DNA of 15,575 nt from contig JAFQPB010000021.1 of NCBI GenBank assembly GCA_017411905.1, positions 1 through 15,575 on the forward strand, in the 5' to 3' direction. The DNA comes from Oscillospiraceae bacterium (GTDB lineage Bacteria; Bacillota_A; Clostridia; Oscillospirales; Oscillospiraceae). Below the pieces are notes generated by a model, which saw only the letters and a list, made by a program, of their open reading frames with translations, was not told the DNA's origin and did not search any database. Below are positions 1 through 14,348 of the stretch, in pieces (the stretch's first letter is position 1; every line of letters begins with the position of its first letter). The translations under genes were made by a program, and so were the position numbers.

Positions 1-283
1 ACTTCGGGGCAGTAGGCGGCGTTTCTCTTTTTTTGCGTGTCAAATATGCTTCAACATCGTGATTGGAAAGAAATTCATCACGCATATTGTATACCGCTTG
101 AACGGATATTTGCGCATATTCCGCTGTTCGCTTATATCGCATATGATCTGTTTTGCCGGTTCGATCCAGCATTAAGAGAACCCTCGCTCGGGTAATAACA
201 TGGGCATTATGAACACCCTTACGAACGATTTCTTTCAGCTGGATTTGTTCTTCCTCGGTTAAATAAATCTCTTTGTTTAACAT
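1..283 (-). CDS. IS630-family transposase, N-terminal part (cut by window edge)
   Basis: The minus-strand frame opens with ATG at 283 and stays open for 94 codons to the left edge, so only the N-terminal part is visible. It begins MLNKEIYLTEEEQIQLKEIV and continues with ARVLLMLDRTG and a helix-turn-helix-like stretch around YAQISVQAVYNMRDEF. This layout is typical of the DNA-binding N-terminus of IS630/Tc1-type transposases. The catalytic DDE domain would lie outside the window. The start is supported by an AAGGGG ribosome binding site about nine bases upstream and by a promoter further upstream. Family membership is recognised from the pattern of the protein and was not searched. The element sits directly behind an unrelated T-box leader, which suggests that it inserted there. 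Confidence 0.72.
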   Translation of the reverse strand, partial: MLNKEIYLTEEEQIQLKEIVRKGVHNAHVITRARVLLMLDRTGKTDHMRYKRTAEYAQISVQAVYNMRDEFLSNHDVEAYLTRKKRETPPTAPK

Positions 284-313
284 TGTGGCATACCCCTTTG
301 CGGTTTTTATTTT

Positions 314-342
314 AGTATACCACATGTTGCTACATAAGTAAA
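314..342 (-). promoter_or_regulatory. Putative promoter of the IS630 transposase
   Basis: On the minus strand a TTTACT box (337-342) is followed after exactly 17 bases by TATACT (314-319). This is a plausible sigma-A promoter ending about 30 bases before the transposase start. It would let the transposase be expressed independently of the T-box leader upstream. The insertion-sequence end probably lies between about 345 and 385, but the inverted repeat cannot be defined because the other end is not visible. Confidence 0.5.
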
Positions 343-387
343 GTTTAAGTTGTTACAAGATACTACGAGAAATATGACAGTTGCCGC

Positions 388-422
388 AAATAAAAAGCCC
401 CTGAAGCCATACGGCTTCAGGG
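388..422 (-). terminator. Rho-independent terminator of the minus-strand T-box leader
   Basis: The minus strand carries a 10-bp perfect stem (CCCTGAAGCC / GGCTTCAGGG) with a four-base loop, followed by GCTTTTTATTT. It lies immediately after the T-box consensus, where a T-box leader places its regulated terminator. When uncharged tRNA binds, the competing antiterminator would form with the T-box sequence and allow read-through. What lies beyond the terminator is the IS630 element. Confidence 0.88.
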
Positions 423-651
423 ACGAAAAAATCGCGGTACCACCCTGCTTGCTTTGCGTACAAAGCCACTCTCGGACTCTATTAAGTCCATAGCCGATAA
501 CGGGGCGACCGTGCTTCATTACTGCCAAAAGGGTTCACAAAGCCGACTCGGGAAGCAGTCCGCCTTAGTTTTCCGCATCGGCTCGCACCAAACGCCGACT
601 CTCTGCAGCTTCTAAATAAGGCATTATTTCCGTCTATGTCTTTCCTATATG
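391..651 (-). promoter_or_regulatory. T-box riboswitch leader, minus strand, probably orphaned (Leu candidate)
   Basis: The conserved T-box sequence AGGGTGGTACCGCG lies at 433-446 on the minus strand, followed by the terminator. Upstream, Stem I features are visible: an AGAGAGTCGG / GGTGCGAGCCGA distal stem and a GCCTTA/TAAGGC helix above the specifier loop. The 3' side of that loop reads GGACTGCTTCCCGAG. By spacing to the conserved GAG, the specifier is most likely CTG (556-558), a Leu codon. The UGGU bulge pairs with an ACCA tRNA end, so discriminator A, which fits Leu and excludes overlapping readings such as TGC (Cys). The class is certain from sequence; the specifier is inference. No amino-acid gene follows: downstream is an IS630 transposase. 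Confidence 0.88.
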
Positions 652-657
652 GGACAC

Positions 658-686
658 ATTAAAGCACATCGAAAGCCCTTTGTCAA
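658..686 (-). promoter_or_regulatory. Promoter of the minus-strand T-box leader
   Basis: Minus-strand TTGACA (681-686, a perfect -35 box) is followed after 17 bases by TTTAAT (658-663, five of six matches to the -10 consensus). Transcription would start near 650, just before Stem I of the T-box. The block from about 700 to 735, between this promoter and the plus-strand one, is very A/T-rich and could act as a shared upstream element. Confidence 0.75.
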
Positions 687-735
687 TGGGGAAAAGCGAT
701 TTTATAAAAATTTTTTGTTTTTACTATAAAAACAT

Positions 736-764
736 TTGACTTTTCCTCGCGGTCGTGGTATTCT
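736..764 (+). promoter_or_regulatory. Promoter of the plus-strand T-box leader and synthetase-VOR operon
   Basis: TTGACT (736-741) is followed after 17 bases by TATTCT (759-764), predicting a start near 771, just before Stem I of the plus-strand T-box. The -35 box is strong and the -10 box moderate. It is divergent from the minus-strand T-box promoter, with about 50 bases between the two -35 boxes. Confidence 0.7.
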
Positions 765-770
765 CTATGC

Positions 771-1038
771 ATATATTAAAAAGGCATTGATGAAGACGGC
801 CGGAGCAAGGTCTTTTCAGAGAGCCGACGGCAGGTGCGAGTCGGTAAGTTTTTGTTCCAAGTGCCCATCCCTTCTGAGCCGGAGCCCGAAAAATCACAAT
901 CAGTAGGCGTCTCCCGTTTGCCCGCGTTAAGGGATAGGACTTGCTGGAGTCTGAAGGTGGCGGCTATGGCCGCAATTTGAGTGGTACCGCGGATATGTTT
1001 TTATTCGTCTCAAGATGTTCTTGAGGCGTTTTTATTTT
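771..1038 (+). promoter_or_regulatory. T-box riboswitch leader controlling the acyl-CoA synthetase/VOR/ilvE operon (Ile candidate)
   Basis: The conserved T-box motif GAGTGGTACCGCGG lies at 979-992 and the terminator follows at 1006-1038. Stem I is recognisable from GATGAAGACGG near 789, AGAGAG at 818-823 and GGTGCGAG at 833-840, with a CCGAC/GTCGG distal stem. Stem III is GCGGC-tatg-GCCGC at 960-973. The 3' side of the specifier loop reads GTGCCCATCCCTTCTGAG. Using the same spacing to GAG as in the neighbouring T-box gives ATC at 867-869, an Ile codon. UGGU in the bulge predicts discriminator A, which fits Ile and argues against CAT (His). GCC (Ala) and CCC (Pro) are not excluded. The class is secure; the specifier is inference, supported by the branched-chain genes downstream. 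Confidence 0.9.
1006..1038 (+). terminator. Regulated terminator of the plus-strand T-box
   Basis: A 9-bp stem, CGTCTCAAG / CTTGAGGCG with one G-T pair and a five-base loop, is followed by TTTTTATTTT. It lies 14 bases after the T-box consensus and 21 bases before the first start codon. It should end transcription unless uncharged tRNA stabilises the antiterminator. Confidence 0.88.
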
Positions 1039-1058
1039 GTGAAAGGATGGTAAAGATT

Positions 1059-3338
1059 ATGAGCGACCAGAAAAATGTAACAACCCCCCTGATGGACGTG
1101 GCCCTGCGAATTCGCGAAATGCGGCAGATCGTGGGCTATACCGTAAAAGAAATGGCAGAGAAGACCGAGATTATCCCGTCGCTCTATGAACGCTATGAGT
1201 CCGGCGCAGTGGATCTGCCCTTCTCCTTTATGCACAAATGCGCCAAGGTCTTTGGCCTTGAGCTGACAGAGCTTTTGGAAGGCCGCAGCGCAAAGCTGAG
1301 CGCCTATACCGTTACCCGCCGGGGCAAGGGTATGGTCACTGCCAGCGAGGACGGCATTACCATCGCCGATATGGCGCCGATGTTCCGCAGCAAGCTGGCA
1401 ACACCCTACTGGGTTACATATGAATACTCCGAGGAGCTGCAGGATGCGCCCATCCACACCACTACCCACGACGGTCAAGAGTTTGATTTGGTGCTGCAGG
1501 GTGCAATGCGCATCAGGGTGGGTGACCATGAGGAAGTACTCCGGGAGGGCGACTCTATCTTCTACAATTCTTCCACACCCCATGGTATGATCGCAGTGGA
1601 GGGGAAGGACTGTGTATTTCTCTCTATGATTATGGCCAGCGACAAGCGGGATACCGCCCTAAAGCTGGAGCCAAGATCTGCTGTTAAGGAGCTGACGGCA
1701 GAGCAGCGGCTGCTGTGCAACGAGTTTGTATGGGGTGCGGAGGATGACAGCGGTGCAATGACCGGCATCAACTATGCAAACACCGACCGCTACAATTTTG
1801 CATTTGACACCGTGGATGCTTTGGCACGAAAGAATCCTGACAAGCTGGCAATGGTGCATATTGGGGATGATATGACAGAGCACCGCTTTACTTTCAAAGA
1901 CTTTAAGGATGCCTCCTCTCAGTGCGCCAACTATTTCAAGTCTTTGGGAATTCGCCGGGGTGACCGTGTTATGCTGGTGCTGAAAAGACACTACCAGTTC
2001 TGGTATGCTATTTTGGGTTTGCACAAGCTGGGCGCGATTGCAATTCCGGCAACCAACCAGCTTATGGAACACGATTTTACCTACCGCTTCCAGGCCGGCG
2101 GTGTATCTGCTATTTTGTGTACTGCGGACGGAGATACTGCCCATCAGGTCGAATTGGCAGAAAAGGTCTGTAATATCAATCTTACGAAGGTTTTGGTTGG
2201 CGGAAGCCGAGAAGGCTGGCACGATTTTAATGAGGAATACGGCTTATTTAGCCGTCGGTATGTCCGCACCGAGGACGCGCCCTGCGGTGATGATCCGATG
2301 CTGATGCTCTTTACCTCCGGCACCACCGGTTATCCCAAAATGGCTATGCACTCTTATAAGTATGCCTTGGGTCACTATGTCACGGCCCGTTATTGGCACT
2401 TATGCGAGCGGGAAGGTCTCCACTTTACTATTTCTGAGACGGGCTGGGGCAAGGCACTTTGGGGCAAGCTCTACGGCCAGTGGCTTTGTGAGGGTGCAGT
2501 CTTTGTCTATGACTTTGACAGATTTGATGCAGAGAAGATCCTGCCAATGTTTGCAAAGTACAATATTACCACCTTCTGCGCACCGCCAACGATGTATCGG
2601 ATGCTTATCAAGCAGGATTTGAGCAAATACGATCTTTCCTCCATTCACCACGCCACCACCGCCGGTGAAGCACTAAATCCGGAGGTTTTCTATCAGTTCG
2701 AAAAATCCACGGGACTGCGGATCCACGAAGGCTTCGGTCAGACGGAAATGACCCTTGGCATTGCAAACCTCTACGGCACCGACATTAAGCCCGGTGCGAT
2801 GGGCAAGCCTATCCCCGGCTACGGTATTGATATCGTGGATGCTGACGGAAAGCCTGTAGAAGACGGTATCAACGGTGAGATCGTCATCCGTACTGATCCC
2901 AAGCCCACCTGTGGTGTGTTCCTCGGTTATTACTTAAATAAGGAGGCCACGGATGCCGTATGGCACGACGGCTTCTACCACACCGGTGATGTGGCTTGGC
3001 GTGACGAGGACGGCTATTACTGGTATGTGGGTCGGGCGGACGATGTGATCAAGTCCTCTGGCTACCGTATCGGACCGTTCGAGATCGAGTCCACCATTAT
3101 GGAACTGCCCTATGTTTTGGAGTGTGGTGTCTGTGCTGCTCCTGACGAGGTGCGCGGGCAGGTAGTCAAGGCCTGCATCGTGCTGGTTCCCGGCACAGAG
3201 GGTACAGAGGAACTGAAAAAAGAAATTCAGTCCTACGTTAAGACCCATACGGCACCTTATAAGTACCCCCGTATTGTAGAGTTCCGGGAGGAGCTGCCTA
3301 AGACCATCAGCGGAAAAATTATGCGAAATAAGCTGTAA
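1059..3338 (+). CDS. XRE-cupin-acyl-CoA synthetase fusion, paralog 1
   Basis: The start is the ATG at 1059, eight bases after GAAAGGATGG. A longer frame from 981 would translate the T-box terminator and is rejected. The protein is 759 residues. Residues 14-74 form an XRE-type helix-turn-helix. Residues 115-195 form a cupin, with likely metal ligands H137, E141 and H175. The rest is an ANL-superfamily adenylate-forming enzyme resembling medium-chain (ACSM) acyl-CoA synthetases: TSGTTGYPK at 419-427, ETGWGKALWG near 460, GFGQTE at 558-563, HTGD at 641-644 and a catalytic lysine in TISGK (K753). It should activate a carboxylic acid to acyl-AMP and then acyl-CoA. The VOR and aminotransferase genes downstream suggest branched-chain or aryl short-chain acids as substrates, which is inference. 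The fused regulator could sense the substrate or bind DNA. It is the first gene under the T-box. Confidence 0.88.
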   Translation: MSDQKNVTTPLMDVALRIREMRQIVGYTVKEMAEKTEIIPSLYERYESGAVDLPFSFMHKCAKVFGLELTELLEGRSAKLSAYTVTRRGKGMVTASEDGITIADMAPMFRSKLATPYWVTYEYSEELQDAPIHTTTHDGQEFDLVLQGAMRIRVGDHEEVLREGDSIFYNSSTPHGMIAVEGKDCVFLSMIMASDKRDTALKLEPRSAVKELTAEQRLLCNEFVWGAEDDSGAMTGINYANTDRYNFAFDTVDALARKNPDKLAMVHIGDDMTEHRFTFKDFKDASSQCANYFKSLGIRRGDRVMLVLKRHYQFWYAILGLHKLGAIAIPATNQLMEHDFTYRFQAGGVSAILCTADGDTAHQVELAEKVCNINLTKVLVGGSREGWHDFNEEYGLFSRRYVRTEDAPCGDDPMLMLFTSGTTGYPKMAMHSYKYALGHYVTARYWHLCEREGLHFTISETGWGKALWGKLYGQWLCEGAVFVYDFDRFDAEKILPMFAKYNITTFCAPPTMYRMLIKQDLSKYDLSSIHHATTAGEALNPEVFYQFEKSTGLRIHEGFGQTEMTLGIANLYGTDIKPGAMGKPIPGYGIDIVDADGKPVEDGINGEIVIRTDPKPTCGVFLGYYLNKEATDAVWHDGFYHTGDVAWRDEDGYYWYVGRADDVIKSSGYRIGPFEIESTIMELPYVLECGVCAAPDEVRGQVVKACIVLVPGTEGTEELKKEIQSYVKTHTAPYKYPRIVEFREELPKTISGKIMRNKL

Positions 3339-3343
3339 AAAGG

Positions 3344-3372
3344 TTGACAGGGAAGAAGAAAAGAAGGATAAT
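3344..3372 (+). promoter_or_regulatory. Putative internal promoter before the second synthetase
   Basis: A perfect TTGACA (3344-3349) is followed after 17 bases by GATAAT (3367-3372, five of six). It starts five bases after the stop codon of paralog 1. Transcription would begin near 3379, cross a palindromic repeat and enter paralog 2. No T-box motif is present between here and 3563, so this promoter could express the downstream genes without tRNA control. Confidence 0.5.
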
Positions 3373-3382
3373 ATAACGATAA

Positions 3383-3535
3383 AGCCTCCCTTTTATAAAG
3401 GGAGCCTTGGCCCCCTCGCTGAGGGGGCTGGCAGAAATCTTTGATTTCTGACTGGGGGAGTGTACTTGGTGAGATAGGACACTTCCTCCGACGCGGCATA
3501 TGCCGCGCCACCTCCATCAAAGAGGGAGGCAAGGC
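3383..3535 (+). repeat. Mosaic palindromic intergenic repeat, copy 1
   Basis: This stretch is almost entirely built from hairpins: CTCCCTTTTATAAAGGGAG (3386-3404), CCCCCTC/GAGGGGG (3411-3427), CAGAAATCTTTGATTTCTG (3432-3450), and a 16-base palindrome centred on GGCATATGCC (3492-3507). It closes with AGAGGGAGGC. The central arm, a short AAATC/GATTT hairpin, and the C-rich/G-rich outer arms recur in the copies near 12498 and 13411. It has no coding potential. Such elements are common between genes in Oscillospiraceae-like genomes; that statement is from general knowledge, not a search. Confidence 0.72.
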
Positions 3536-3562
3536 CGTGGGCAGAGAATTTGAGGTTGGTTT

Positions 3563-5848
3563 ATGGATAATAATATCACCGGGATGGATTTTAAGACGCG
3601 GCAGGTTGCAGCGCGTATCCGGGAGCTTCGGGAAGCCAATGGACTTACTCCGGAGGAGATGGCACAGCGCACCGACATGAGTGTGGAGGAATATCTCCAG
3701 CATGAGCAGGGCAACCGGAATTTGAATATCGCCTTTTTGTACCGTTGTACGCTTATCTTGGGTGTCGATTTTGGCGACCTTTTGGAGGGTCACAGCCCTA
3801 AGCTGCGCGCTTATGCCTTGACGAGAAAGGGTGACGGTCAGCGCATTGAAGAAGCTCACGGGATGGTTGGCTACAACTTGGCGGCGGGCTTTAGAAACCG
3901 TATTGCACTGCCCCTTTATATGGAGCTGGCTTACCGCCCCGATGAAGAGCGGGAAATTGAGGTCACTACCCATACGGGGCAGGAGTGCGACATTGTGATC
4001 CGCGGGCATATGAAAATTCAGATCGGCGGGCATACGGAAATTCTCCACCCCGGCGACTGTATTTATTACGATTCCTCCGTGCCCCACGGTATGATCGCGG
4101 TGGAGGGCGAGGATTGCGCGTTTTATGCTATTGTGCTGTCTAATTCCGCCGCCCGTGAAAACGAGGAGGCAACAGCCGTTGCCACCGTGGAAGCGGCACC
4201 TGTACAGACCGATGACGAAAAGCGTATTTATCATAAGTTTATCATTCCTACTGAGGAAAAGGGTAAGCTTACCGCCATCGCGTTCCGCAATGAGGAGAAA
4301 TTCAATTTTGCCTTTGATGTTGTGGATGCACTGGGTCGCAGTAAGCCGGAAAAGCTGGCAATGCTTCACATTGCGAAGGACGGCACCGAGCACCGGTTTA
4401 CCTTTAAGGATATGAAAAAGGAATCCGCCCGGGCTGCCAATTATTTTAAGGCGTTGGGTATCCGTCGGGGCGACCGGGTGATGCTGGTGCTAAAGCGTCA
4501 CTACCAGTTCTGGTTTGCAATGTTAGGACTTCATAAGTTGGGCGCGATCGCCATTCCGGCCACCAACCAGCTTCTTGAAAAGGACTTTACATACCGCTTT
4601 GCGGCAGGCAATGTAAAAGCTATCCTCTGTACTGCTGACGGGGATACGGCCGATGCGGTGGATGCGGCGGCCGCAAAGACACCCACCCTTGCCTGCAAGA
4701 TTATGGTCGGCGGCAAAAAAGAGGGCTGGCACGACTTTGATGAGGAATACACAATGTATTCTTCCCACTTTGCAAGAGCCGAGGATGCGCCTTGCGGAAG
4801 TGACCCGATGCTAATGTTCTTTACATCCGGCACTTCCGGTTATCCCAAGATCGCTGCCCATAACTATAAGTATCCCTTGGGTCACTTTATTACCGCAAAA
4901 TACTGGCATCGCGTGGATCCCGATGGCCTGCACCTGACCATTTCCGATACTGGCTGGGCAAAGGCACTTTGGGGCAAGCTCTACGGCCAGTGGCTTTGCG
5001 AGGCGGCAAACTTCGTATACGACTTTGACCGTTTTGATGCAGAGAAGATTCTGCCGATGTTTGCAAAGCATAAGATCACCACCTTCTGCGCTCCGCCCAC
5101 GATGTACCGGATGCTCATTAAGCAGGATCTGAGCCGGTTTGACCTTTCCTCTATCCGTCACGCCTCTACCGCAGGTGAAGCCCTGAACCCGGAGGTCTAC
5201 CGCCAGTTTAAGAAGCACACCGGCCTTGCGGTCAAGGAAGGCTTTGGCCAGTCGGAAAGCACGATTATCATTGGCAACCTGACCGGCGACAGCCATAAGG
5301 TTGGCTCTATGGGCAAGCCTGTACCGCTGTATAACGTTCAGCTTTTGGATATTGAAGGAAAGCCGGTTGCTCCCGGTGATACCGGTGAAATTTGCATTGA
5401 TATTTCCAAGGGACTGCCCTGCGGTCTTGCCTATGCTTATGAGGGAAGCCCGGAGATCACAGCGGAAACTTGGCGGGATGGCTATTATCACACCGGAGAC
5501 CTTGCTTGGAAGGACGAGGACGGCTTCTACTGGTACGTGGGCCGTGCCGATGATGTGATTAAATCTTCCGGCTACCGGATTGGACCTTTTGAGATTGAAA
5601 ATGTAATTATGGAGTTGCCCTATGTCTTGGAGTGCGGTGTATCTGCCGCGCCTGACGAGATTCGCGGTCAGGTTGTCAAGGCAAGCATTGTACTTGTGGG
5701 CGATATGAAGGGTACGGACGGGCTGAAAAGAGAAATTCAGGACTATGTAAAATCCCGCACAGCCCCCTATAAATATCCACGCATCGTGGAATTTAGGGAG
5801 AGTCTCCCTAAGACCACCAGCGGTAAAATTATTCGCAAACAATTGTAA
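3563..5848 (+). CDS. XRE-cupin-acyl-CoA synthetase fusion, paralog 2
   Basis: The protein is 761 residues with the same architecture as paralog 1: an XRE-type helix-turn-helix at about 15-75, a cupin at about 115-195 with H137, E141 and H175 at identical positions, and an ACSM-like synthetase. Motifs are TSGTSGYPK (421-429), SDTGWAKALWGK near 461, GFGQSE and a C-terminal TTSGK lysine (K755). The C-terminal halves of the two paralogs are close to each other, while the regulatory N-termini differ more. Residues after GFGQ (SESTIIIG here, TEMTLGIA in paralog 1) also differ, which may reflect a different acyl substrate. The ATG at 3563 has GAGG seven bases upstream. It probably activates another branched or aryl acid for the downstream oxidoreductase; substrate identity is not visible from sequence. 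Confidence 0.88.
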   Translation: MDNNITGMDFKTRQVAARIRELREANGLTPEEMAQRTDMSVEEYLQHEQGNRNLNIAFLYRCTLILGVDFGDLLEGHSPKLRAYALTRKGDGQRIEEAHGMVGYNLAAGFRNRIALPLYMELAYRPDEEREIEVTTHTGQECDIVIRGHMKIQIGGHTEILHPGDCIYYDSSVPHGMIAVEGEDCAFYAIVLSNSAARENEEATAVATVEAAPVQTDDEKRIYHKFIIPTEEKGKLTAIAFRNEEKFNFAFDVVDALGRSKPEKLAMLHIAKDGTEHRFTFKDMKKESARAANYFKALGIRRGDRVMLVLKRHYQFWFAMLGLHKLGAIAIPATNQLLEKDFTYRFAAGNVKAILCTADGDTADAVDAAAAKTPTLACKIMVGGKKEGWHDFDEEYTMYSSHFARAEDAPCGSDPMLMFFTSGTSGYPKIAAHNYKYPLGHFITAKYWHRVDPDGLHLTISDTGWAKALWGKLYGQWLCEAANFVYDFDRFDAEKILPMFAKHKITTFCAPPTMYRMLIKQDLSRFDLSSIRHASTAGEALNPEVYRQFKKHTGLAVKEGFGQSESTIIIGNLTGDSHKVGSMGKPVPLYNVQLLDIEGKPVAPGDTGEICIDISKGLPCGLAYAYEGSPEITAETWRDGYYHTGDLAWKDEDGFYWYVGRADDVIKSSGYRIGPFEIENVIMELPYVLECGVSAAPDEIRGQVVKASIVLVGDMKGTDGLKREIQDYVKSRTAPYKYPRIVEFRESLPKTTSGKIIRKQL

Positions 5849-5854
5849 TGATGG

Positions 5855-5904
5855 CGTAGGGGCGACTATCAGTCGCCCGCGGGCGGATAGTATCCGCCCC
5901 TACG
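5855..5904 (+). repeat. Short palindromic repeat with 10-bp terminal inverted repeats
   Basis: The outer arms CGTAGGGGCG (5855-5864) and CGCCCCTACG (5895-5904) are perfect inverted repeats. Inside are two further hairpins, GGGCGAC/GTCGCCC and GGGCGGATA/TATCCGCCC. The element fills most of the gap between paralog 2 and the P-loop gene. It resembles the small non-coding palindromic units found in many copies in clostridial genomes. It has no T-run and is not an obvious terminator. Confidence 0.7.
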
Positions 5905-5930
5905 ATTCTACACGATAGTAGGAGTTTAAT

Positions 5931-6620
5931 TTGGAACAAAAACGATTAACCCTCTTTGCCGGACATTACGGCAGTGGAAAAACCAATATTGCCGTCAACT
6001 ATAGCTTATATCTCAGGAAGCTTGGCTACCCGGTGACGGTGGCGGATTTGGACATCGTCAATCCCTATTTCCGTACCAAGGACAGCGCGGCAGTACTGGA
6101 AAGTGCGGGAATAGAGCTGATATCTTCCCCCTTTGCCAACAGCAACCTGGATGTGCCGGCTATGCCGCCGGAGGTCTACCGCTTGGTAGCGGATAGAACC
6201 CGCTACGGTGTGCTGGACATCGGCGGTGACGACCGGGGCGCGCTGGCGTTGGGACGGTATGTGCCGATGATATTGGAGGAGAATGACTACGAAATGCTTT
6301 TCGTGATCAACAAGTCCCGTCCCCTTACCCGGGATGTGGCAGGCACACTGGAAGTGATGGAGGAAATTGAAACCGCCTGCGGTCTTAAGTTCACTGCCAT
6401 CGTTAACAATACCAATTTGGGAAAAGTCACCACTGTAGAGGATATTTTGGCAAGCGAAAGCTATGCGAAAGCAGTATCGGAAAAAACAGGCCTGCCTATC
6501 AAAATGACAACGGTAAATCATACACTTTTGCAACATCTACCGGAGGGAAATTTCTTCCCCCTCTATTTGCAAGAGCTATATTACGAAATAAAAACGGAGG
6601 ACACATTATGGCGAAACTGA
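5931..6620 (+). CDS. Small P-loop NTPase (SIMIBI/MinD-CobQ-like) of the VOR operon
   Basis: The gene starts with TTG at 5931; an AGTAGGAG ribosome binding site six bases upstream decides this. The 229-residue product has a Walker A loop GHYGSGKTN (11-19), a DLDIVNPYF segment (39-47, the likely switch I/Walker A' region) and LDIGGDD (95-101, the likely switch II/Walker B region). NNTNLG near residue 160 resembles a nucleotide-base recognition motif. This places it with MinD/ParA/CobQ-type ATPases, although the extra lysine of the deviant Walker A motif is absent. It has no signal peptide or membrane segment, so it is probably cytosolic. Its last 13 bases overlap the ferredoxin gene, implying tight co-expression. 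It might assist Fe-S assembly or maturation of the oxidoreductase, but its function is unknown. Confidence 0.8.
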   Translation: MEQKRLTLFAGHYGSGKTNIAVNYSLYLRKLGYPVTVADLDIVNPYFRTKDSAAVLESAGIELISSPFANSNLDVPAMPPEVYRLVADRTRYGVLDIGGDDRGALALGRYVPMILEENDYEMLFVINKSRPLTRDVAGTLEVMEEIETACGLKFTAIVNNTNLGKVTTVEDILASESYAKAVSEKTGLPIKMTTVNHTLLQHLPEGNFFPLYLQELYYEIKTEDTLWRN

Positions 6621-6814
6621 CATTTAAGGAAGAGCTGTGCAAGGGCTGCGGCCTTTGCGTAAACGCCTGTCCCAAGGGAATCTTGACTCTCTCCCGGACA
6701 AGGCTTAATCAAAAGGGACACGCACCGGTAGAGCTGACAAAGCCTGAGGACTGCGTAGGCTGCGCGTTTTGCGCTACGATGTGTCCTGACTGTGTAATTA
6801 AAGTAGAAAAGTGA
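6608..6814 (+). CDS. 2x[4Fe-4S] ferredoxin-like delta subunit of 2-oxoacid:ferredoxin oxidoreductase
   Basis: This 68-residue protein has two classic cluster-binding motifs, CKGCGLCVNACP (residues 11-22) and CVGCAFCATMCP in the C-terminal half. That spacing ligates two [4Fe-4S] clusters and matches the delta/ferredoxin subunit of four-subunit oxidoreductases such as VOR and KOR. It would pass electrons between the TPP centre and free ferredoxin. The start ATG lies inside the end of the P-loop gene, with GGAGG seven bases upstream. The alpha-subunit gene begins nine bases after its stop codon. The assignment to this complex rests on gene order. Confidence 0.9.
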   Translation: MAKLTFKEELCKGCGLCVNACPKGILTLSRTRLNQKGHAPVELTKPEDCVGCAFCATMCPDCVIKVEK

Positions 6815-6823
6815 GGAGAAGCT

Positions 6824-7873
6824 ATGGAAAAGGTACTGATGAAAGGCAATGAAGCCATTGCCGAAGCCGCCATTTTGGCTGGCTGCCGCCATTACTTTGG
6901 CTATCCCATTACTCCCCAAACGGAGGTTGCCGCCTATATGGCAAAGCGGATGCCCAAAATTGACGGCGTATTTTTGCAGGCAGAGAGTGAAATCGCTGCG
7001 ATCAATATGGTCTACGGTGTTGCCGCTACCGGTAAGCGGGTTATGACCTCCTCCTCCAGTCCCGGAATTGCGCTGAAGTGCGAGGGCATTTCCTATCTTG
7101 CGGGTGCTGACCTGCCGGCCCTCATTGTTAACGTCCAGCGTGGCGGCCCCGGCCTTGGCGGTATCCAGCCGTCCCAGTCTGACTATTTCCTTGCCACCCG
7201 GGGACCCGGACACGGTGACTTCCACGTGCTGGTGCTGGCACCGGCTTCTGTACAGGAAATGGCAGATCTTACATACAAGGGCTTTGATTTAGCGGAAAAA
7301 TACCGTATGCCCGTAATGTTATTGGCGGACGGTACAATGGGTCAGATGATGGAGCCGGTTGCGCTTCCTGAACCGCAGGAAATCAAGCCTGCTCCCGATT
7401 GGGCGACTGTCGGCACAAAATGCCAGAGAAAACACAATATTGCAAACTCCCTTTACCTTTCTCCTGCCGAGCTGGAGCAGCTCAATTTCCAGCGCTTTGA
7501 GCGGTATGCAGAAATTGAGAAGAATGAGTGCCTGTGGGAAGAATATATGATGGAAGATGCGGAGTACTGTGTGGTTTCCTGCGGCATCACCGCCCGCGTG
7601 GCGAAAAATGCCATCATTGAAGCCCGGGTAAAGGGCATTCGGGTGGGTCTCATTCGGCCCATCACCCTGTGGCCTTTCCCCAATGCGCCCCTTGCTGCTG
7701 CGGCAGATAAGGTCAAGTCCTTCCTGACTGTGGAGCTGAGTATGGGTCAGATGCGGGAGGATGTGCTCCTCGCAACGGAATGTAAGAAGCCGGTCTTTGC
7801 CTGCAACCGGGTTGGCGGTATGATCCCCGCTCCCGAGGAAGTGCTGGCAAAAATCGAGGAAATGACAAAGTAA
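6824..7873 (+). CDS. vorB: 2-oxoacid:ferredoxin oxidoreductase alpha subunit, VorB-like
   Basis: This 349-residue protein matches the alpha subunit of the pyruvate/2-oxoacid:ferredoxin oxidoreductase superfamily. It opens with [16 protein letters not shown] and has [10 protein letters not shown] (25-34), the family's signature, then [14 protein letters not shown] and [10 protein letters not shown]. The conserved QRGGPGLGG segment follows. The family catalyses reversible oxidative decarboxylation of 2-oxo acids to acyl-CoA with ferredoxin as acceptor. The VorB type is named for 3-methyl-2-oxobutanoate, but 2-oxoglutarate enzymes (KorA) are closely related and cannot be excluded by eye. The neighbouring branched-chain aminotransferase and acyl-CoA synthetases favour branched-chain substrates. 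A GTGAGGAG ribosome binding site precedes the ATG. Confidence 0.87.
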
Positions 7874-7886
7874 GGAGGCACGAAAG

Positions 7887-8624
7887 ATGGTTGTATTTGA
7901 TAAACCCAAAGCACTGACCGATACAGTGCTTCACTACTGCCCCGGATGTACCCACGGCATTGTACACCGCTTGGTTGCCGAGGTTATGGACGAACTGGGC
8001 ATCGAGGGTAAGACGGTTGGTGTTGCACCCGTTGGCTGCAGTGTTCTTGCTTATAATTATTTTGCCTGCGATATGGTAGAAGCCGCCCACGGCCGCGCCC
8101 CTGCAGTCGCTACCGGCATTAAGCGGGCACTTCCCGATAATGTAGTCTTTACTTATCAGGGTGACGGCGACCTTGCCTCTATTGGTATGTGTGAGACTGT
8201 TCACGCCGCCGCAAGAGGAGAGAACATCACCGTTATCTTTATTAACAATGCTATTTACGGTATGACCGGCGGTCAGATGGCACCTACCTCTCTGATCGGA
8301 CAGGTGACCCAGACATCTCCCTACGGAAGGTCTGCGGAGACCCAAGGTTATCCCATCCGGGTATGCGAAATGCTCTCTACCTTGGATGGCCCTGCTTACT
8401 TGGAGCGTGTAACTGTCAATAATGTCAAGAATGTCAATAAGGCGAAAAAGGCCATCAAAAAGGCTTTCCAAAATCAGTTAGACGGCAAGGGCTTCTCTTT
8501 GGTAGAGGTGCTTTCCTCCTGCCCCACCAACTGGGGTATGACACCCCAAAAGGCACTGGAGTGGATCGATGAGAAGATGATTCCTCAGTACCCCTTGGGT
8601 GTTTACAAGGATAAGGAGGCGTAA
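7887..8624 (+). CDS. vorA: 2-oxoacid:ferredoxin oxidoreductase beta subunit, TPP-binding (VorA-like)
   Basis: The 245-residue product is the thiamine-diphosphate-binding beta subunit. HYCPGCTHG (16-24) is the conserved N-terminal motif. GDGDLASIG (92-100) together with [11 protein letters not shown] (120-130) forms the TPP/Mg-binding GDG-NN motif. The protein also has a PVGCS segment near 48-52. It carries the reaction centre for decarboxylation, or in reverse for reductive carboxylation of acyl-CoA. GGAGG lies ten bases upstream of the ATG. It is 13 bases from the alpha gene and 2 bases from the gamma gene, a typical operon arrangement. Substrate choice between branched-chain 2-oxo acids and 2-oxoglutarate cannot be fixed from motifs alone. 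Confidence 0.88.
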
Positions 8625-8626
8625 TT

Positions 8627-9169
8627 ATGCGGGAAAATCAAATTGTGATCGCCGGTTTTGGCGGTCAGGGCTTGCTGTTTTCCGGTAAGGTGCTTGCCTA
8701 TGCCGGTATGATGGAAGGACGTTATTTAAGCTGGCTGCCTTCCTACGGTCCGGAAATGCGGGGCGGTACGGCCAACTGTAATGTTATCCTCAGCGACAGG
8801 GAGATCGGTTCTCCCATCGTAAACCATCCCGACATTTTGATGGTTATGAACGGCCCATCTCTTGACAAATTCGAAAAGGACGTTGTACCCGGCGGTAAGA
8901 TATTTATCGACAGCTCTTTGATTACACGCAAAGTAGAGCGTACCGATGTGGAGGCCTATTATATCCCCGCATCTGCAATGGCGCGGGAGATGGGTGTACC
9001 GAATCTTGCCAATATGGTGCTTTTGGGTGCGCTGGTAAAGAAAACCGGCTGTGTCACCGAGGATGGCTTGGACGCAGGTCTGCAAAAGGTCATTCCTGCC
9101 CGCAAGGCAGATATGCTGGATGTAAACCGCAAGATGCTCCGCGCCGGTATGGATTTTAAGGGGGAATAA
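8627..9169 (+). CDS. 2-oxoacid:ferredoxin oxidoreductase gamma subunit
   Basis: This 180-residue protein begins with the family hallmark IVIAGFGGQGLLFSGK (about 7-22). SYGPEMRGGTANC follows near residue 40 and NMVLLGALVKKTG in the C-terminal half. These are characteristic of the gamma subunit or domain that contacts CoA and completes the catalytic dimer. With the ferredoxin, alpha and beta subunits it makes a full four-subunit enzyme. The ribosome binding site AAGGAGG lies within the last codons of the beta gene, suggesting translational coupling, and only two bases separate the stop codon from ilvE. Confidence 0.87.
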   Translation: MRENQIVIAGFGGQGLLFSGKVLAYAGMMEGRYLSWLPSYGPEMRGGTANCNVILSDREIGSPIVNHPDILMVMNGPSLDKFEKDVVPGGKIFIDSSLITRKVERTDVEAYYIPASAMAREMGVPNLANMVLLGALVKKTGCVTEDGLDAGLQKVIPARKADMLDVNRKMLRAGMDFKGE

Positions 9170-9171
9170 AA

Positions 9172-10248
9172 ATGATTTACGATATTCAAATTGAAAAGAC
9201 TGCCACCCCTAAGGTAAAACCGGTAGACGAAAGCAAGCTGGGCTTCGGCAAGATCTTTACAGACCATATGTTTATAATGGACTATGCCCAAGGTAAGGGC
9301 TGGTACAATGGCCGCATCGTACCCTTTGGCCCGATACCTCTGCATCCCGCATCTACCGTGCTGCACTACGGCGCGGAGATATTCGAGGGTATGAAGGCTT
9401 ATCGGGCAGCCGACGGAAGCATCCGTATGTTCCGCCCTATGGAGAATATTAAGCGGCTCAACACCAGTGCTGAGCGGCTGTGCCTGCCCCAGCTTGACGA
9501 GGAGGGCGCACTGCATATTCTGAATACCCTCGTAGAGTTGGAAAAGGACTGGGTGCCCCACAATGATGGTACTTCTCTCTATATCCGTCCTTTCCTTTTC
9601 GGCAACGATCCCCATTTGGGTGTCCACGCTGTGAAGGAGGCCACCTTTGTAATTATCTGCTCTCCTGTAGGTGCTTACTATGCCGAGGGCATTAACCCAG
9701 TTAAGATCGCCATTGAGGCTCAGGATGTTCGCGCTGTTCGCGGTGGCACAGGCTATGCAAAGTGCGGTGGCAACTATGCGGCATCTCTGCGGGCAGGTCA
9801 GCGTGCGGAAGAAAACGGTTATACCCAAGTTTTGTGGCTGGACGGCGTGGAGCGTAAGTATATCGAAGAGGTTGGCGCGATGAACGTTATGTTCAAGATC
9901 AGCGGCAAGATCGTCACACCTGCCCTCTCCGGCTCTATCCTCCCCGGCATTACCCGCAAGTCCTGCATCGAGCTGCTCCGTGACTGGGGCTATACGGTAG
10001 AGGAGCGTCCTATCTCTGTGGATGAGCTGTTTGCCGCTGCAGCAGACGGCACACTGGAGGAAGCTTGGGGCACCGGCACCGCTGCCGTCGTTTCTCCCAT
10101 CGGTCAGCTATTCTATAATGGCACCGCCTACACCCTCTGCGACGGCAAGATCGGCGAGGTCGCCCAAAAGCTGTACGACAACCTTACCGGCATCCAGTGG
10201 GGCAAGCTCCCCGATAGCCACGGCTGGAGCTATAAAGTATGTGAATAA
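9172..10248 (+). CDS. ilvE: Branched-chain amino acid aminotransferase
   Basis: This 358-residue protein is a fold-type IV PLP aminotransferase of the BCAT family. It has FGPIPLHPAS, LHYGAEIFEGMKAY (64-77), YIRPFLFG (137-144), and the PLP-lysine motif GGTGYAKCGGNYA with K197. EEVGAMN (232-238) carries the conserved glutamate, and GTGTAAVVSPIG lies in the C-terminal part. It exchanges the amino group between glutamate and 2-oxo acids of Leu, Ile and Val. As the last gene of the T-box operon, two bases behind the VOR gamma gene, it is placed to convert the 2-oxo acids made or used by VOR. A strong terminator follows its stop codon at once. The length is normal for the eukaryote-like BCAT subgroup. 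Confidence 0.95.
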   Translation: MIYDIQIEKTATPKVKPVDESKLGFGKIFTDHMFIMDYAQGKGWYNGRIVPFGPIPLHPASTVLHYGAEIFEGMKAYRAADGSIRMFRPMENIKRLNTSAERLCLPQLDEEGALHILNTLVELEKDWVPHNDGTSLYIRPFLFGNDPHLGVHAVKEATFVIICSPVGAYYAEGINPVKIAIEAQDVRAVRGGTGYAKCGGNYAASLRAGQRAEENGYTQVLWLDGVERKYIEEVGAMNVMFKISGKIVTPALSGSILPGITRKSCIELLRDWGYTVEERPISVDELFAAAADGTLEEAWGTGTAAVVSPIGQLFYNGTAYTLCDGKIGEVAQKLYDNLTGIQWGKLPDSHGWSYKVCE

Positions 10249-10278
10249 GAAAAAGCCACCCAGTCGGGTGGCTTTTTC
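10249..10278. terminator. Strong bidirectional terminator between ilvE and the deo operon
   Basis: A perfect 13-bp stem, GAAAAAGCCACCC / GGGTGGCTTTTTC with loop AGTC, begins right after the ilvE stop codon. The arms end in A5 and T5, so it can stop transcription from both sides: the plus-strand synthetase-VOR-ilvE operon and the minus-strand deo operon. Confidence 0.92.
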
Positions 10279-10362
10279 AATGCAGAATGCAAAATGCGCA
10301 ATGCAGAATTACGATGTCATTCTGAGCGGAGGGCGATAGCCCGCAGTCGAAGAATCTTCGCA
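10279..10362. repeat. Interspersed intergenic repeat (AATGCAGAATG tandem plus TCATTCTGAGCGG unit)
   Basis: The segment starts with short near-repeats of AATGCAGAAT / AATGCAAAATGCGC / AATGCAGAATTA. It continues with GTCATTCTGAGCGGAGGGCG and CGAAGAATCTTCG, in which AGGGCGATAGCCC forms a hairpin. Units with TCATTCTGAGCG and GAAGAATCT are, from general knowledge, dispersed in many copies in clostridial and other genomes. No promoter or gene is visible. It separates the terminator from the end of the small minus-strand gene. Confidence 0.6.
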
Positions 10363-10371
10363 GTTTTGTTT

Positions 10372-10824
10372 TTATGGTTCATCTTGAATGGAATTAGAGT
10401 AGATTACGGTGTGGGGAAAGTCTTCGCTGTCATTTTGGAAAATTCTCCATTGTTCAGAATCTTCTACGTAATGAGGAGAACTATTGGAAATTAACATTTG
10501 TATCTGTATGTTGTTTTCCAGCCAAATAAACAGATCATTCGTATCCATAAGCTGTGCTTTGCTAACCCTATTGTTAATGATTAAATTCTTGTGTAGAGAC
10601 AGATTGTACCATTCATCATTGTTTTTGTCATCTGTCTCATCCCAATTTTGATAATCCAAAGTTGTGAGCAAAATCTGATCCTTATACAGAATTCTCGTAA
10701 AACATTGTGAATGAATAGCGATATTATCAAATGTAAACATCATCATTTCACAAGCCAAGCTCAAATTGCTAAGCGTCTTTCCGTCCAGCAATTCCAAATA
10801 GTCTTTGATTTTTTGCCTACTCAT
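10372..10824 (-). CDS. Small AT-rich protein of unknown function
   Basis: The 150-residue frame has a good start: GTAGGAGA lies about seven bases before the ATG at 10824. Its codons are clearly more A/T-rich than those of its neighbours, which hints at acquisition by transfer. The protein is soluble and has no signal peptide or membrane helix. Visible segments are FTFDNIAIHSQCFTRIL near 30-46, then LFIWLENNIQIQMLISNSSP and SEQWRIF in the C-terminal half. The pattern loosely recalls a group of small hypothetical proteins with an 'LHIQCPWRI ... EYWRFF' layout, often found near toxin or immunity genes; this is recollection and low in confidence. It lies 60 bases after cdd on the same strand and may be the last cistron of the deo transcript. 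Confidence 0.62.
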   Translation of the reverse strand: MSRQKIKDYLELLDGKTLSNLSLACEMMMFTFDNIAIHSQCFTRILYKDQILLTTLDYQNWDETDDKNNDEWYNLSLHKNLIINNRVSKAQLMDTNDLFIWLENNIQIQMLISNSSPHYVEDSEQWRIFQNDSEDFPHTVIYSNSIQDEP

Positions 10825-10850
10825 TACTTTTCTCCTACTCTTTTATAAAA

Positions 10851-10883
10851 GGGCGGTCAAGGACGGGGAACCCGTCCCCTACG
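10851..10883. repeat. Short hairpin repeat (GGACGGGGAACCCGTCC)
   Basis: A 7-bp stem, GGACGGG (10861-10867) / CCCGTCC (10871-10877), is flanked by GGGCGGTCAA and CCTACG. Its minus-strand form CGTAGGGGACGGG resembles the ends of the repeat at 5855, suggesting a related dispersed family. It lies between cdd and the AT-rich gene. There is no run of Ts directly after the stem on the minus strand, so it is a weak terminator at best. Confidence 0.5.
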
Positions 10884-11276
10884 TTATAATTTAAAACTGT
10901 GGGGGAGAATGGCAGACAAGGGTTCTGCGATGATGCCGCCCTTTCCGTCGGGGAAATAGACCATAAAGTCTGCTTTGCAGAACTCGCCCATCACCTGTCG
11001 ACAGACACCGCAGGGGGCGCAGGCGGCATCGGGACTGTCTTTTCCGCCTACAATGGCGATGGCCACAAAATCCCGCCGACCGTCGTAGACTGCCTTAAAG
11101 ATGGCAGTACGTTCGGCGCAGATGGTAGGTGTAAAGGAGGAATTTTCGATATTACAGCCCGTGTACACCGTGCCGTCGCTGCACAGCAGCGCCGCGCCTA
11201 CCTTGAAGCCGGAATAGGGGGAGTAAGAGTGCAGCCGCGCTTCCTGGGCTTTTTCGATTAGCTTTTCAGGTGTCAT
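10884..11276 (-). CDS. cdd: Cytidine deaminase
   Basis: The 130-residue length matches the homotetrameric bacterial cytidine deaminases. YSPYSGFKVGAAL (18-30) is the conserved N-terminal motif. CAERTAIF (53-60) supplies one zinc cysteine and the catalytic glutamate E55. PCGVCRQ (88-94) supplies the other two zinc cysteines, C89 and C92. The enzyme deaminates cytidine and deoxycytidine to uridine and deoxyuridine in the cytosol. Its ATG overlaps the deoB stop codon as ATGA, indicating translational coupling within the nucleoside-salvage operon. The zinc site is intact. Confidence 0.95.
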   Translation of the reverse strand: MTPEKLIEKAQEARLHSYSPYSGFKVGAALLCSDGTVYTGCNIENSSFTPTICAERTAIFKAVYDGRRDFVAIAIVGGKDSPDAACAPCGVCRQVMGEFCKADFMVYFPDGKGGIIAEPLSAILPHSFKL

Positions 11277-12442
11277 TTTAAGATCTCCTTTGCAAAGCTC
11301 TCACCGGGGGTGTCCAGCTTTACGTTCAGGACTTCCGCAACGGTGGCGGCAATGTCTGCAAAGCTAAGGCGGGTGCCCAAGTTTACATTTTTCACGTTCT
11401 TACCCAGCACCAGCAGAGGAACATACTCCCGGGTGTGGTCGGTGGTGGCAGTATAGCCGGGGTCACAGCCATGGTCGGCGGTGATCATCACAAGGTCATC
11501 TTCGCCCATTTTCTCTAAAAGCTTAGGCAGCCAAGTGTCAAATTCGTTTAGTGCCAGCGCGTAGCCGTCGATATCCCGACGGTGGCCGTAGACCATATCA
11601 AAGTCTACGAGGTTCACAAAGCATAAGCCCGTAAAGTCCGTATCTGCATAGTGCAGCGCGTGCGCCATACCATTGGTGTTCGACTGATTATAGACGTGCT
11701 CCGTGGTGCCGATGCCGGCGAAAATATCGAAGATTTTGCCAACGGCAATGCTGTCAAGACCTGCGGCCTTTACAGCATCCAAAAGGGTCGCCTTCGGCGG
11801 CTCTAAGGAAAAATCGTGACGGTTGGCAGTGCGCTTGAACGCGCCTGCTTTGTCACCTACGAAGGGGCGGGCAATGACACGGCCAACACCGTGCTTGCCG
11901 GTGAGTAATTTGCGGGCAATGCGGCAGTATTCGTAAAGCTGCTCGGGAGAAACAACGTCCTCGTGGGCGGCAATTTGGAATACGGAGTCCGCAGAGGTGT
12001 AGACGATCAAATCGCCGGTTTTCATATGCTCCTCACCGTAGGCATCCAGCACAGCCGTACCGCTCCAAGGGGCATTTGCCAGCACACCCCGGCCTATGGC
12101 CGCCCGGAAAGGTGCTAAGATTTCCTCGGGGAAGCCGTCGGGGTAGGTGGGCAGGGGATCAGGAGAGACGAGCCCTGCGATCTCCCAGTGACCGATAGTG
12201 GTGTCTTTACCCATAGACTTTTCCGCCAGTCGGGCGTATGCGCCGGTGGGAACGTCTGCTTTCGGCAGGCAGGAAACACCGTCGATGTTACTAAGGCCTG
12301 CGGCAATCATATTGGGGATGGATAGCTTTTTGGAGGTGGCGCAGGCGGCAAGGGTATTGACGCCTATATCACCGAAAGCGGGGGAATCGGGCATTGCACC
12401 GATTCCGAAAGAATCCAGAACAATTAAAAATACGCGTTTCAT
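11273..12442 (-). CDS. deoB: Phosphopentomutase
   Basis: The start chosen is the ATG at 12442, preceded by AGAGGTG. The frame continues 18 codons upstream, but the protein from MKRVFLIVLDSFGIGAMPD matches the family's N-terminus. The product is 389 residues, normal for DeoB. D10 in the first motif and TADHGCDP in the C-terminal part are alkaline-phosphatase-superfamily metal ligands. GKDTTIGHWEIAG (78-90) carries the phosphorylated threonine, here T81. VNLVDFDMVYGHRRD and DHTREYVPLLV are also typical. The enzyme interconverts (deoxy)ribose 1- and 5-phosphates, linking DeoD and cytidine salvage to DeoC. It overlaps cdd by four bases, and a palindromic repeat separates it from deoD. Confidence 0.95.
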   Translation of the reverse strand: MKRVFLIVLDSFGIGAMPDSPAFGDIGVNTLAACATSKKLSIPNMIAAGLSNIDGVSCLPKADVPTGAYARLAEKSMGKDTTIGHWEIAGLVSPDPLPTYPDGFPEEILAPFRAAIGRGVLANAPWSGTAVLDAYGEEHMKTGDLIVYTSADSVFQIAAHEDVVSPEQLYEYCRIARKLLTGKHGVGRVIARPFVGDKAGAFKRTANRHDFSLEPPKATLLDAVKAAGLDSIAVGKIFDIFAGIGTTEHVYNQSNTNGMAHALHYADTDFTGLCFVNLVDFDMVYGHRRDIDGYALALNEFDTWLPKLLEKMGEDDLVMITADHGCDPGYTATTDHTREYVPLLVLGKNVKNVNLGTRLSFADIAATVAEVLNVKLDTPGESFAKEILK

Positions 12443-12497
12443 AGAGTGCACCTCTGTGGGGATAAATATGAATTTGGATTTGTATAGGGTGCGCAAC

Positions 12498-12627
12498 GAA
12501 GGCTTCTCCTTGAGGAGAAGCTGTCAAAAAATTCTTGATTTTTTGACTGATGAGGTGAAATTATCCTTTATTAACACCGCATCCGACCTCGCTTTGCTCG
12601 GTCACCTTCCCCTCAAGGGGAAGGCTT
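12498..12627. repeat. Mosaic palindromic intergenic repeat, copy 2 (between deoD and deoB)
   Basis: The outer arms are hairpins: GGCTTCTCCTTGAGGAGAAGC on the left and CTTCCCCTCAAGGGGAAG on the right. The core is TCAAAAAAT/ATTTTTTGA, followed by a smaller CCGACCTCG/CTCGG hairpin near 12582-12601. It shares the A/T-rich central arm and C-/G-rich ends with copies at 3383 and 13411. It fills most of the 183-base gap between deoD and deoB. It is non-coding, and long runs of Ts after the stems are lacking, so transcription is expected to continue into deoB. Confidence 0.72.
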
Positions 12628-13378: not shown

Positions 13379-13410
13379 AATATATTCTCCTTAGTTATTA
13401 AGTTTAGGGT

Positions 13411-13515
13411 CAAAACCTTCCCCTCAGGGGAAGGGGGACCGCTTGCGGTGGATGAGGGTAAAACCTCACCCGTCAAAAATCAAAGATTTTTGCCACCCTC
13501 CCCAAAGGGGAGGGC
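13411..13515. repeat. Mosaic palindromic intergenic repeat, copy 3 (between deoC and deoD)
   Basis: It contains CCTTCCCCTCAGGGGAAGG on the left, a central TCAAAAATCAAAGATTTTTG hairpin (13473-13491) and CCCTCCCCAAAGGGGAGGG on the right. The layout and core agree with the copies at 3383 and 12498, while the spacer sequence differs. It occupies most of the 153-base gap between deoC and deoD. It has no coding content. Confidence 0.72.
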
Positions 13516-13531
13516 TATTTGTGGCATCAAT

Positions 13532-14200: not shown

Positions 14201-14226
14201 AATAAAAACTCCTTTCAGTTTTCTTT

Positions 14227-14255
14227 ATTATAACAGAAACACGAAAAATATGCAA
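14227..14255 (-). promoter_or_regulatory. Promoter of the deoC-deoD-deoB-cdd operon
   Basis: Minus-strand TTGCAT (14250-14255) is followed after 17 bases by a perfect TATAAT (14227-14232), with the transcription start expected near 14219. An inverted repeat ACTGT-gtgg-ACAGT (14255-14268) abuts the -35 box and could be an operator for a deoxynucleoside regulator. That reading is speculative because the arms are only five bases. Confidence 0.7.
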
Positions 14256-14287
14256 CTGTGTGGACAGTAGGAGCACGTAGATTTTGC

Positions 14288-14315
14288 TTGCATTTTCTGG
14301 GGAATTTACTATAAT
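14288..14315 (+). promoter_or_regulatory. Promoter of the ADP-ribosylglycohydrolase-like gene
   Basis: TTGCAT (14288-14293) is followed after 16 bases by a perfect TATAAT (14310-14315). It is divergent from the deo promoter, and the two share the same -35 hexamer. An AGAGGTG ribosome binding site lies five bases before the start codon at 14349. Confidence 0.65.
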
Positions 14316-14348
14316 AAAAGCATAAAGTGTAGAAAAAGAGGTGAAACT

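Follow-up and report, generated by a model that had tools for sequence, protein, structure and literature searches.

A 15,575-nucleotide stretch of DNA from an Oscillospiraceae bacterium (Clostridia; GenBank assembly GCA_017411905.1, contig JAFQPB010000021.1, positions 1 to 15,575), referred to here in its full length as the window, raises the question why two acyl-CoA ligases, a 2-oxoacid:ferredoxin oxidoreductase and a branched-chain aminotransferase are clustered behind a T-box, an RNA leader that senses uncharged tRNA. The initial annotation, made from the sequence letters alone, had regarded the span 771..10278 as one transcription unit that could build branched-chain amino acids from exogenous fatty acids. 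The gene cluster exists in this span, but its last gene already stops at 10248. The list of components given at that time was correct but incomplete, because the helix-turn-helix and cupin domains of the ligases, a nucleoside triphosphatase (NTPase) gene and a second, divergent T-box had been missed. Our analysis indicates that the locus very probably encodes an anabolic route from branched short-chain fatty acids to branched-chain amino acids, in which, across the related loci, each ligase is assigned to its own T-box.

According to this proposal, a branched acid would be taken up from the surroundings and converted by an AMP-forming ligase with ATP and CoA into the acyl-CoA. The oxidoreductase, working in the reductive direction, would then join the acyl-CoA with CO2 at the expense of reduced ferredoxin, and the resulting 2-oxo acid would be aminated by the aminotransferase IlvE. 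Ligase 1 (LIG1) would open the way from 2-methylbutyrate to isoleucine and ligase 2 (LIG2) that from isobutyrate to valine; a third ligase, which is found in a neighbouring operon with a leucine T-box in relatives, would probably lead from isovalerate to leucine. Each ligase would be switched on by a T-box when the matching tRNA is uncharged, which means tRNA-Ile in the case of LIG1. The anabolic sequence had been suggested before and is supported here by the isoleucine specifier, by the scarcity of ilv genes in the related genomes and by the nearest structural relative of the ligases, with the direction and the substrates being what we infer from this context. Synthesis is also favoured by the ATP that AMP-forming ligases consume and by the response of T-boxes to amino acid starvation.

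Isoleucine and valine T-boxes ahead of the ligases

The isoleucine T-box leader is located at 778..1015 (+) and reached 94.9 bits with the Rfam model RF00230, for which the gathering score is 93; this confirms the T-box reported in the initial annotation. It is preceded by a promoter-like site (TTGACT-17-TATTCT, 736..764, +), which is a consensus match only, and a terminator-like site at 1006..1028 (+) belongs to it. The specifier AUC was found at 867-869 and the antiterminator T-box motif at 980-991 (+). LIG1 follows at about 1059..3338 (+), its start at 1059 being chosen from sequence inspection. A second leader of the window, discussed below with leucine, is also above the gathering score, and the specifiers fit the respective amino acid and are kept among relatives, as is also seen in Rfam alignments of isoleucine, valine and leucine leaders. 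With its antiterminator motif and terminator-like site, the window leader is predicted to act by tRNA-dependent antitermination.

To place the window among its relatives, 80 loci (L001-L080), the maximum number allowed, were taken from at least 582 confirmed places, which had been obtained by scanning genome contigs with a ligase alignment. By their record titles they belong to Oscillospiraceae and other Clostridia, many of them from ruminant guts, and the genomes are mostly metagenome-derived. With the window counted, 75 of 81 loci have a T-box motif within 1 kb upstream of the LIG1 gene, which is above chance. Two of the six loci without the motif have less than 250 bases upstream of the gene, and in the other four (L026, L069, L075, L077) LIG1 is situated directly behind the third ligase gene. 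All 74 readable LIG1 leaders, again with the window included, carry the specifier ATC for isoleucine; the leader of L056 is cut by the contig. The flanks of this triplet vary, with C (53) or T (21) before it and A (44), C (28) or G (2) after it. A specifier for an amino acid unrelated to the branched acids had been named beforehand as an observation that would speak against the proposed role; what was found is AUC, in the window as well as in every readable relative.

The gene for LIG2 (3563..5848, +) is preceded by a T-box in 38 loci. All 36 leaders that were read by pattern specify valine (32 GTA and 4 GTC), and in L023, L027 and L072 the second anchor of the pattern matched as well. The two remaining leaders were not read by pattern: L050 shows GTA by eye, and the reading of L058 is incomplete. 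An earlier, narrower reading of the T-boxes in this gap gave 22 GTA, 1 GTC and 1 AAC among 24 leaders, the AAC coming from L023, which also reads GTA. These specifier counts rest on the anchored pattern reading and on reading by eye. Isoleucine, valine and leucine T-boxes occur together in 13 loci. When nine whole loci were scanned with Rfam, the isoleucine T-box exceeded the gathering score in five (L001, L009, L018, L025, L034), leucine T-boxes did so in L001, L009 and L042 and valine T-boxes in L034 and L042, the amino acids being assigned from the specifier reading. T-boxes upstream of ileS were considered as a control for the specifier reading; Rfam detected none in 12 such loci of the same genomes (L081-L092), and the pattern search gave one odd match (L088), which made this set unusable as control. 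The starvation switch for a branched-chain amino acid assumed before is retained, and the regulation is richer than had been supposed, with separate isoleucine, valine and leucine T-boxes. The window itself has no valine T-box ahead of LIG2. We assume that it has been lost there and was not primordially absent.

The claim that the cluster forms one transcription unit could not be established, because a promoter-like site (TTGACA-17-GATAAT, 3344..3372, +) with 11 of 12 consensus positions precedes LIG2. Among the loci in which the positions of both ligase genes could be assigned, the gap between them contains a similar site in 34 of 37 cases if it carries a T-box and in 12 of 23 cases if it does not, the window counted among the latter. 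Single-base shuffles of the same gaps gave 5.7 and 0.93 such cases, respectively. The isoleucine T-box surely leads LIG1, the only gene for which this is certain, and LIG2 and the shared enzymes downstream may be transcribed separately. In the window, the isoleucine switch would accordingly lead LIG1, LIG2 and the shared enzymes could start from their own promoter-like site, and the leucine switch stands without its usual gene. As a separate observation, a pair of 45-base inverted repeats (78% identity) is located at 3411-3455 and 13469-13513, and one copy falls in the gap between LIG1 and LIG2, the site of the valine T-box in relatives. A separate palindrome lies 3' of LIG2 at 5855-5904. These elements are perhaps interspersed repeats.

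Two ligase clades and a residue of the presumed acyl pocket

Both acyl-CoA synthetases noted initially are AMP-forming ligases with Pfam matches, and both carry an N-terminal helix-turn-helix and a cupin domain. They are 60% identical to each other, and their nearest relative with a solved structure is the same protein, PDB entry 3ETC (615 bits for LIG1 and 616.7 bits for LIG2). In a tree of 137 ligases, 81 LIG1 and 56 LIG2 sequences are placed on opposite sides with a support of 100 in the Shimodaira-Hasegawa-like approximate likelihood ratio test, in a quick tree calculated without bootstrap. The LIG1 rows comprise 73 with an isoleucine T-box, 6 with none and 2 unread, and the LIG2 rows 33 with a valine T-box, 20 with none and 3 unread. 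An isoleucine T-box never occurs in the LIG2 clade and a valine T-box never in the LIG1 clade.

Between the sets labelled by their T-boxes, 11 positions are fixed to more than 90% for different residues. Ten of these are located at positions 14-120, from the helix-turn-helix up to the cupin match, hinting that the fused region may also be specific and might be involved in substrate or product sensing. The single discriminating position in the catalytic domain is 467, which is glycine in 81 of 81 LIG1 and alanine in 56 of 56 LIG2 proteins; no other position is this clean. In the alignment it corresponds to Val310 of E. coli Acs, the neighbour of Trp309, and Val310 presumably lines the acetate pocket of that enzyme. 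The 3ETC protein has glycine at the equivalent position, like LIG1. At the place of Acs Trp414 both ligases have glycine (Gly563 in LIG1), as expected of MacsMa-like branched-acid ligases, to which the similarity with 3ETC also points. On these grounds LIG1 is proposed to be a 2-methylbutyryl-CoA synthetase of the isoleucine arm and LIG2 an isobutyryl-CoA synthetase of the valine arm; the smaller pocket expected from alanine at position 467 would fit isobutyrate.

The 3ETC protein is the acyl-CoA synthetase MacsMa of Methanosarcina acetivorans, for which a preference for 2-methylbutyrate is stated in PMC10455477. It resembles the window ligases in the glycine replacing Acs Trp414 and shares the glycine at position 467 with LIG1. 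It differs from them in that its chain of 580 residues aligns with their catalytic part only, leaving the helix-turn-helix and cupin region unaligned, and LIG2 deviates from it by the alanine at position 467.

Shared enzymes, host genomes and the proposed leucine arm

The four-subunit oxidoreductase was confirmed downstream of LIG2. It is encoded by genes for the delta subunit, a two-cluster ferredoxin-like protein (6608..6814), the alpha subunit of the VorB family (6824..7873), the thiamine diphosphate-binding beta subunit (7887..8624, PF02775) and the gamma subunit (8627..9169, PF01558), all on the forward strand. VorB is the one subfamily whose cut-off is exceeded by the alpha subunit (NF005507, 528.3 bits, cut-off 399). 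Branched 2-oxo acids or acyl-CoA are candidate substrates, with the subfamily assignment applying to alpha. The cluster ends with the aminotransferase, which was likewise verified as class II IlvE (9172..10248, +; NF009897, 481.5 bits, cut-off 307; TIGR01123, 399.9 bits, cut-off 250.05).

The NTPase of 229 residues encoded between LIG2 and delta (5931..6620, +) is of the SIMIBI class with a ParA/MinD/signal recognition particle (SRP) fold. It has a weak match to Pfam CbiA below the cut-off, and a P-loop-like GSGKT stretch is invariant in 30 aligned rows. Its AlphaFold model has a predicted local distance difference test score of 85.5, and Foldseek retrieved SIMIBI-type NTPases, with SRP GTPases first and ATPase-type HypB also among them, at template modelling scores of about 0.5-0.6. 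Our guess would be a maturation factor for the oxidoreductase.

At fixed identity limits, 60 of the 80 loci have the gene for alpha on the same strand and 53 have the genes for all four subunits, whilst the NTPase was found there in 64 loci and IlvE in 45. Most of the 20 loci without alpha stop at or close to a contig edge. When matches covering at least 80% were compared, the window ligases are nearest to those of L001-L017 (90% and 83%), delta, alpha, beta, gamma and the NTPase to those of L018-L024 (85, 82, 91, 75 and 68%, respectively), and IlvE to that of L050 (80%). This mosaic look suggests that recombination may have brought the cluster together.

The initial annotation had suggested a search for co-occurrence of this gene set with loss of the ordinary pathway, and the outcome was favourable. 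Among the 80 ligase-carrying genomes, ilvC exceeded the cut-off in 11, ilvB in 11, ilvD in 13 and leuB in 5. One carrier in which ilvC gave no match at all is Erysipelotrichaceae NK3D112 (L076), which is probably an isolate, as its record is not labelled as a metagenome-assembled genome. The control gene ileS passed its cut-off in 72 of 80 and gave some match in 80 of 80, a level at which other synthetases are included. In 14 control genomes ilvB, ilvC and ilvD exceeded the cut-off without exception; leuB did so in 9 of 14 only, and the value of 5 of 80 is hence a low estimate, with seven genomes showing leuB matches of 250-273 bits. In addition, 216 genomes of the order around genome G001 were compared, a sample that includes three of the 80 (G001, G043, G057). 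There, ilvC is present in 9 of the 58 genomes whose ligase match is full-length (E = 0) as opposed to 93 of the 158 others, in a comparison that ignores shared ancestry and for which one scan scored at most four candidates per genome. This order was used instead of that around G076, because the latter, with ilvC over the cut-off in 84 of 294 genomes, has too little ilvC for an informative background.

Regarding leucine, the divergent T-box of the window (645-416, -) reached 114.1 bits in Rfam (cut-off 93) and has the specifier CUG at 558-556, i.e. leucine. In relatives, such T-boxes precede an operon starting with a LeuA-like gene; of this operon only the leucine T-box was found in the window. 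The LeuA-like gene lies at L001:7838-9259 (-) and has orthologues in a further 38 loci, and a T-box precedes it in 31 loci. By pattern, 19 of these 31 were read (13 CTG, 5 CTC, 1 CTT), 3 matched elsewhere and 9 gave no match; inspection by eye gave CTG or CTC for ten of the 12 leaders left. In common with LeuA, the L001 protein has an HMGL-like and a LeuA allosteric domain. The HxH metal motif, however, was seen in 0 of 38 and the RDG motif in 0 of 37 rows covering these sites. An identity as the 2-isopropylmalate synthase LeuA was rejected, given the missing HxH motif and a score of 295.7 bits for the L001 protein against a cut-off of 532. The third ligase is encoded 3' of the LeuA-like gene and is fused to a xylose-isomerase-like TIM barrel. 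Since leuB over the cut-off is rare and the two motifs are absent, the third ligase is proposed to activate isovalerate and the LeuA-like protein to be a conserved pseudoenzyme, perhaps acting as a leucine sensor. Of the three arms, this one is the least certain.

It might be possible that all these elements form a modular system of gut Clostridia mostly lacking ilv genes, a notion to which we would give slightly less than even chances. Here, three ligases, one per branched acid and controlled by the T-box for the respective amino acid, would share the oxidoreductase and the aminotransferase. The inactive LeuA paralogue with its leucine-binding (LeuA allosteric) domain and the helix-turn-helix and cupin regions of two of the ligases would add product and substrate sensing at the protein level, and the ligase pair would have diverged in specificity through the Gly/Ala change in the pocket, in step with the specifier codon.

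Rival readings, known routes and the rest of the window

Several observations weigh against the proposed anabolic route. The beta, gamma and delta subunits exceed none of the listed family cut-offs, and MbcS (NF047394), which scores highest among the NCBIfam families for either ligase, was rejected as their identity, since 435.5 bits for LIG1 and 423 bits for LIG2 are far from the cut-off of 850. Three loci (L048, L052, L063) have LIG1 and its isoleucine T-box and about 10 kb of downstream sequence free of the oxidoreductase, the search being confined to that stretch of the genome, and in L053 the oxidoreductase sits on the strand opposite to LIG1. At the gathering score, Rfam missed the isoleucine T-box in four of the nine scanned loci (L023, L042, L044, L055). 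A strict stem-pairing script gave unique reads of 42 ATC and 1 GGA among 75 LIG1 leaders, 26 valine and 3 other triplets (GAG, AGA, ATC) among 38 LIG2 leaders, and 6 CTG and 2 other among 30 leaders of the LeuA-like gene, all remaining leaders being ambiguous or unread; on inspection, the six non-matching reads turned out to be four-base pairings off the usual specifier place. The rarity of ilv genes, moreover, is known from the genomes of relatives and not from the window's own. Retention of ilvC in 11 of 80 carriers indicates that cluster and ordinary pathway can occur side by side, and the neglect of shared ancestry in the order comparison belongs to the same side. At an E value of 0.001 or better, matches to ilvC were found in 27, ilvD in 21, ilvB in 34 and leuB in 69 of the 80 genomes. 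The extra ilvC matches are short and below 31 bits, and those of ilvD include seven at 495-535 bits (cut-off 618) as well as one in pieces. Such relatives below the cut-off could do the job in some hosts.

Three other explanations can be set against the anabolic route. The oxidoreductase might be a 2-oxoglutarate or generic 2-oxoacid enzyme of glutamate synthesis or central metabolism that is merely placed beside the ligases. Models of 2-oxoglutarate enzymes indeed give 250 bits for alpha (cut-off 579) and 124 bits for beta (cut-off 364), in both cases below the cut-off, and the sequence alone leaves the substrate undecided. This is nevertheless improbable, given that alpha passes the VorB cut-off and no other, that the genes recur behind branched-chain ligases (alpha in 60 and all four subunits in 53 of 80 loci), and that 38 loci have a T-box ahead of LIG2, upstream of the oxidoreductase, which specifies valine in the 36 read by pattern. 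It is hardly more plausible, and by our estimate even slightly less so, that the ligases supply branched acyl-CoA for the fatty acid synthesis of membrane lipids, with the amino acids as a side issue. We take this to be the role of MbcS in Gram-positive bacteria, and MbcS is the family that both ligases approach most closely, though with 435 and 423 bits at about half of the required 850; the branched-chain T-boxes, the clustering with the oxidoreductase and IlvE, and the rare ilv genes of the hosts speak for amino acids instead.

The lowest probability is given to a catabolic cluster, in which energy would be gained by deamination of amino acids and oxidative decarboxylation to the acids, the classical role of VOR. 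VOR and the aminotransferase are reversible, which would permit this direction. AMP-forming ligases, on the other hand, consume ATP, T-boxes are switched on under starvation, and ilv genes over the cut-off are rare in the hosts, all of which is contrary to an energy-yielding breakdown.

The anabolic route itself is old. Allison, Robinson and Peel reportedly described reductive carboxylation in the physiology of rumen bacteria between 1966 and 1971. In the rumen, 2-methylbutyrate serves as precursor of isoleucine, isobutyrate of valine and isovalerate of leucine (PMC7356843), which are the same acids, products and type of habitat as for the present cluster. The rumen work concerns physiology, whereas the present loci, mostly from metagenome-derived genomes of Clostridia, add candidate genes and, for each product, a switch that senses tRNA. 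For Methanobrevibacter ruminantium M1, synthesis of isoleucine from 2-methylbutyrate has been proposed, which explains a growth requirement (PMC2812497). The proposed reaction is the same as in the isoleucine arm, but the organism is an archaeon, and neither a T-box nor such a cluster is named in the passage on this synthesis. The T-box regulons surveyed in Firmicutes (PMC2494555, PMC3766115) belong to the same RNA family and follow the same logic, with the specifier predicting the amino acid, and a T-box upstream of leuA was found in two species (PMC2494555). The words ferredoxin, ketoisovalerate and acyl-CoA are absent from the main texts of these two surveys. The passages on 2-oxoglutarate oxidoreductases of Bacteroides in PMC11304471 have no bearing on T-boxes. 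In the open PMC literature, judged by title and the beginning of the abstract, no paper was found that joins T-boxes with the carboxylation of branched acids, nor one describing the cluster and the switching per amino acid.

The loci thus provide candidate genes for every step of the isoleucine and valine arms of a rumen habit known for about 60 years, since the 1960s. The specifier can be read as a regulatory code by which each ligase is matched with a single amino acid, in hosts of which most have no ilvC over the cut-off. If the proposed route is true, the use of branched acids would become predictable from genomes and ligase specificity testable by one residue, which would also matter for livestock fed with branched acids and for cross-feeding in the gut.

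The rest of the window contains several further genes. Behind the divergent leucine T-box, an open reading frame (325-2, -) runs open into the window end; it has no Pfam or NCBIfam match, and we assume a resemblance to the helix-turn-helix start of an IS630-type transposase. A near-identity search in a plasmid collection gave no match. Downstream of IlvE, an open reading frame of 150 residues (10372-10824, -) has no Pfam match. It is followed by nucleoside salvage genes (10884-14200, -) for a cytidine deaminase, a metalloenzyme-superfamily protein that is presumably deoB-like, judged by its position, a nucleoside phosphorylase and a DeoC-family aldolase. Finally, a protein of the ADP-ribosylglycohydrolase family is encoded at 14349-15428 (+).

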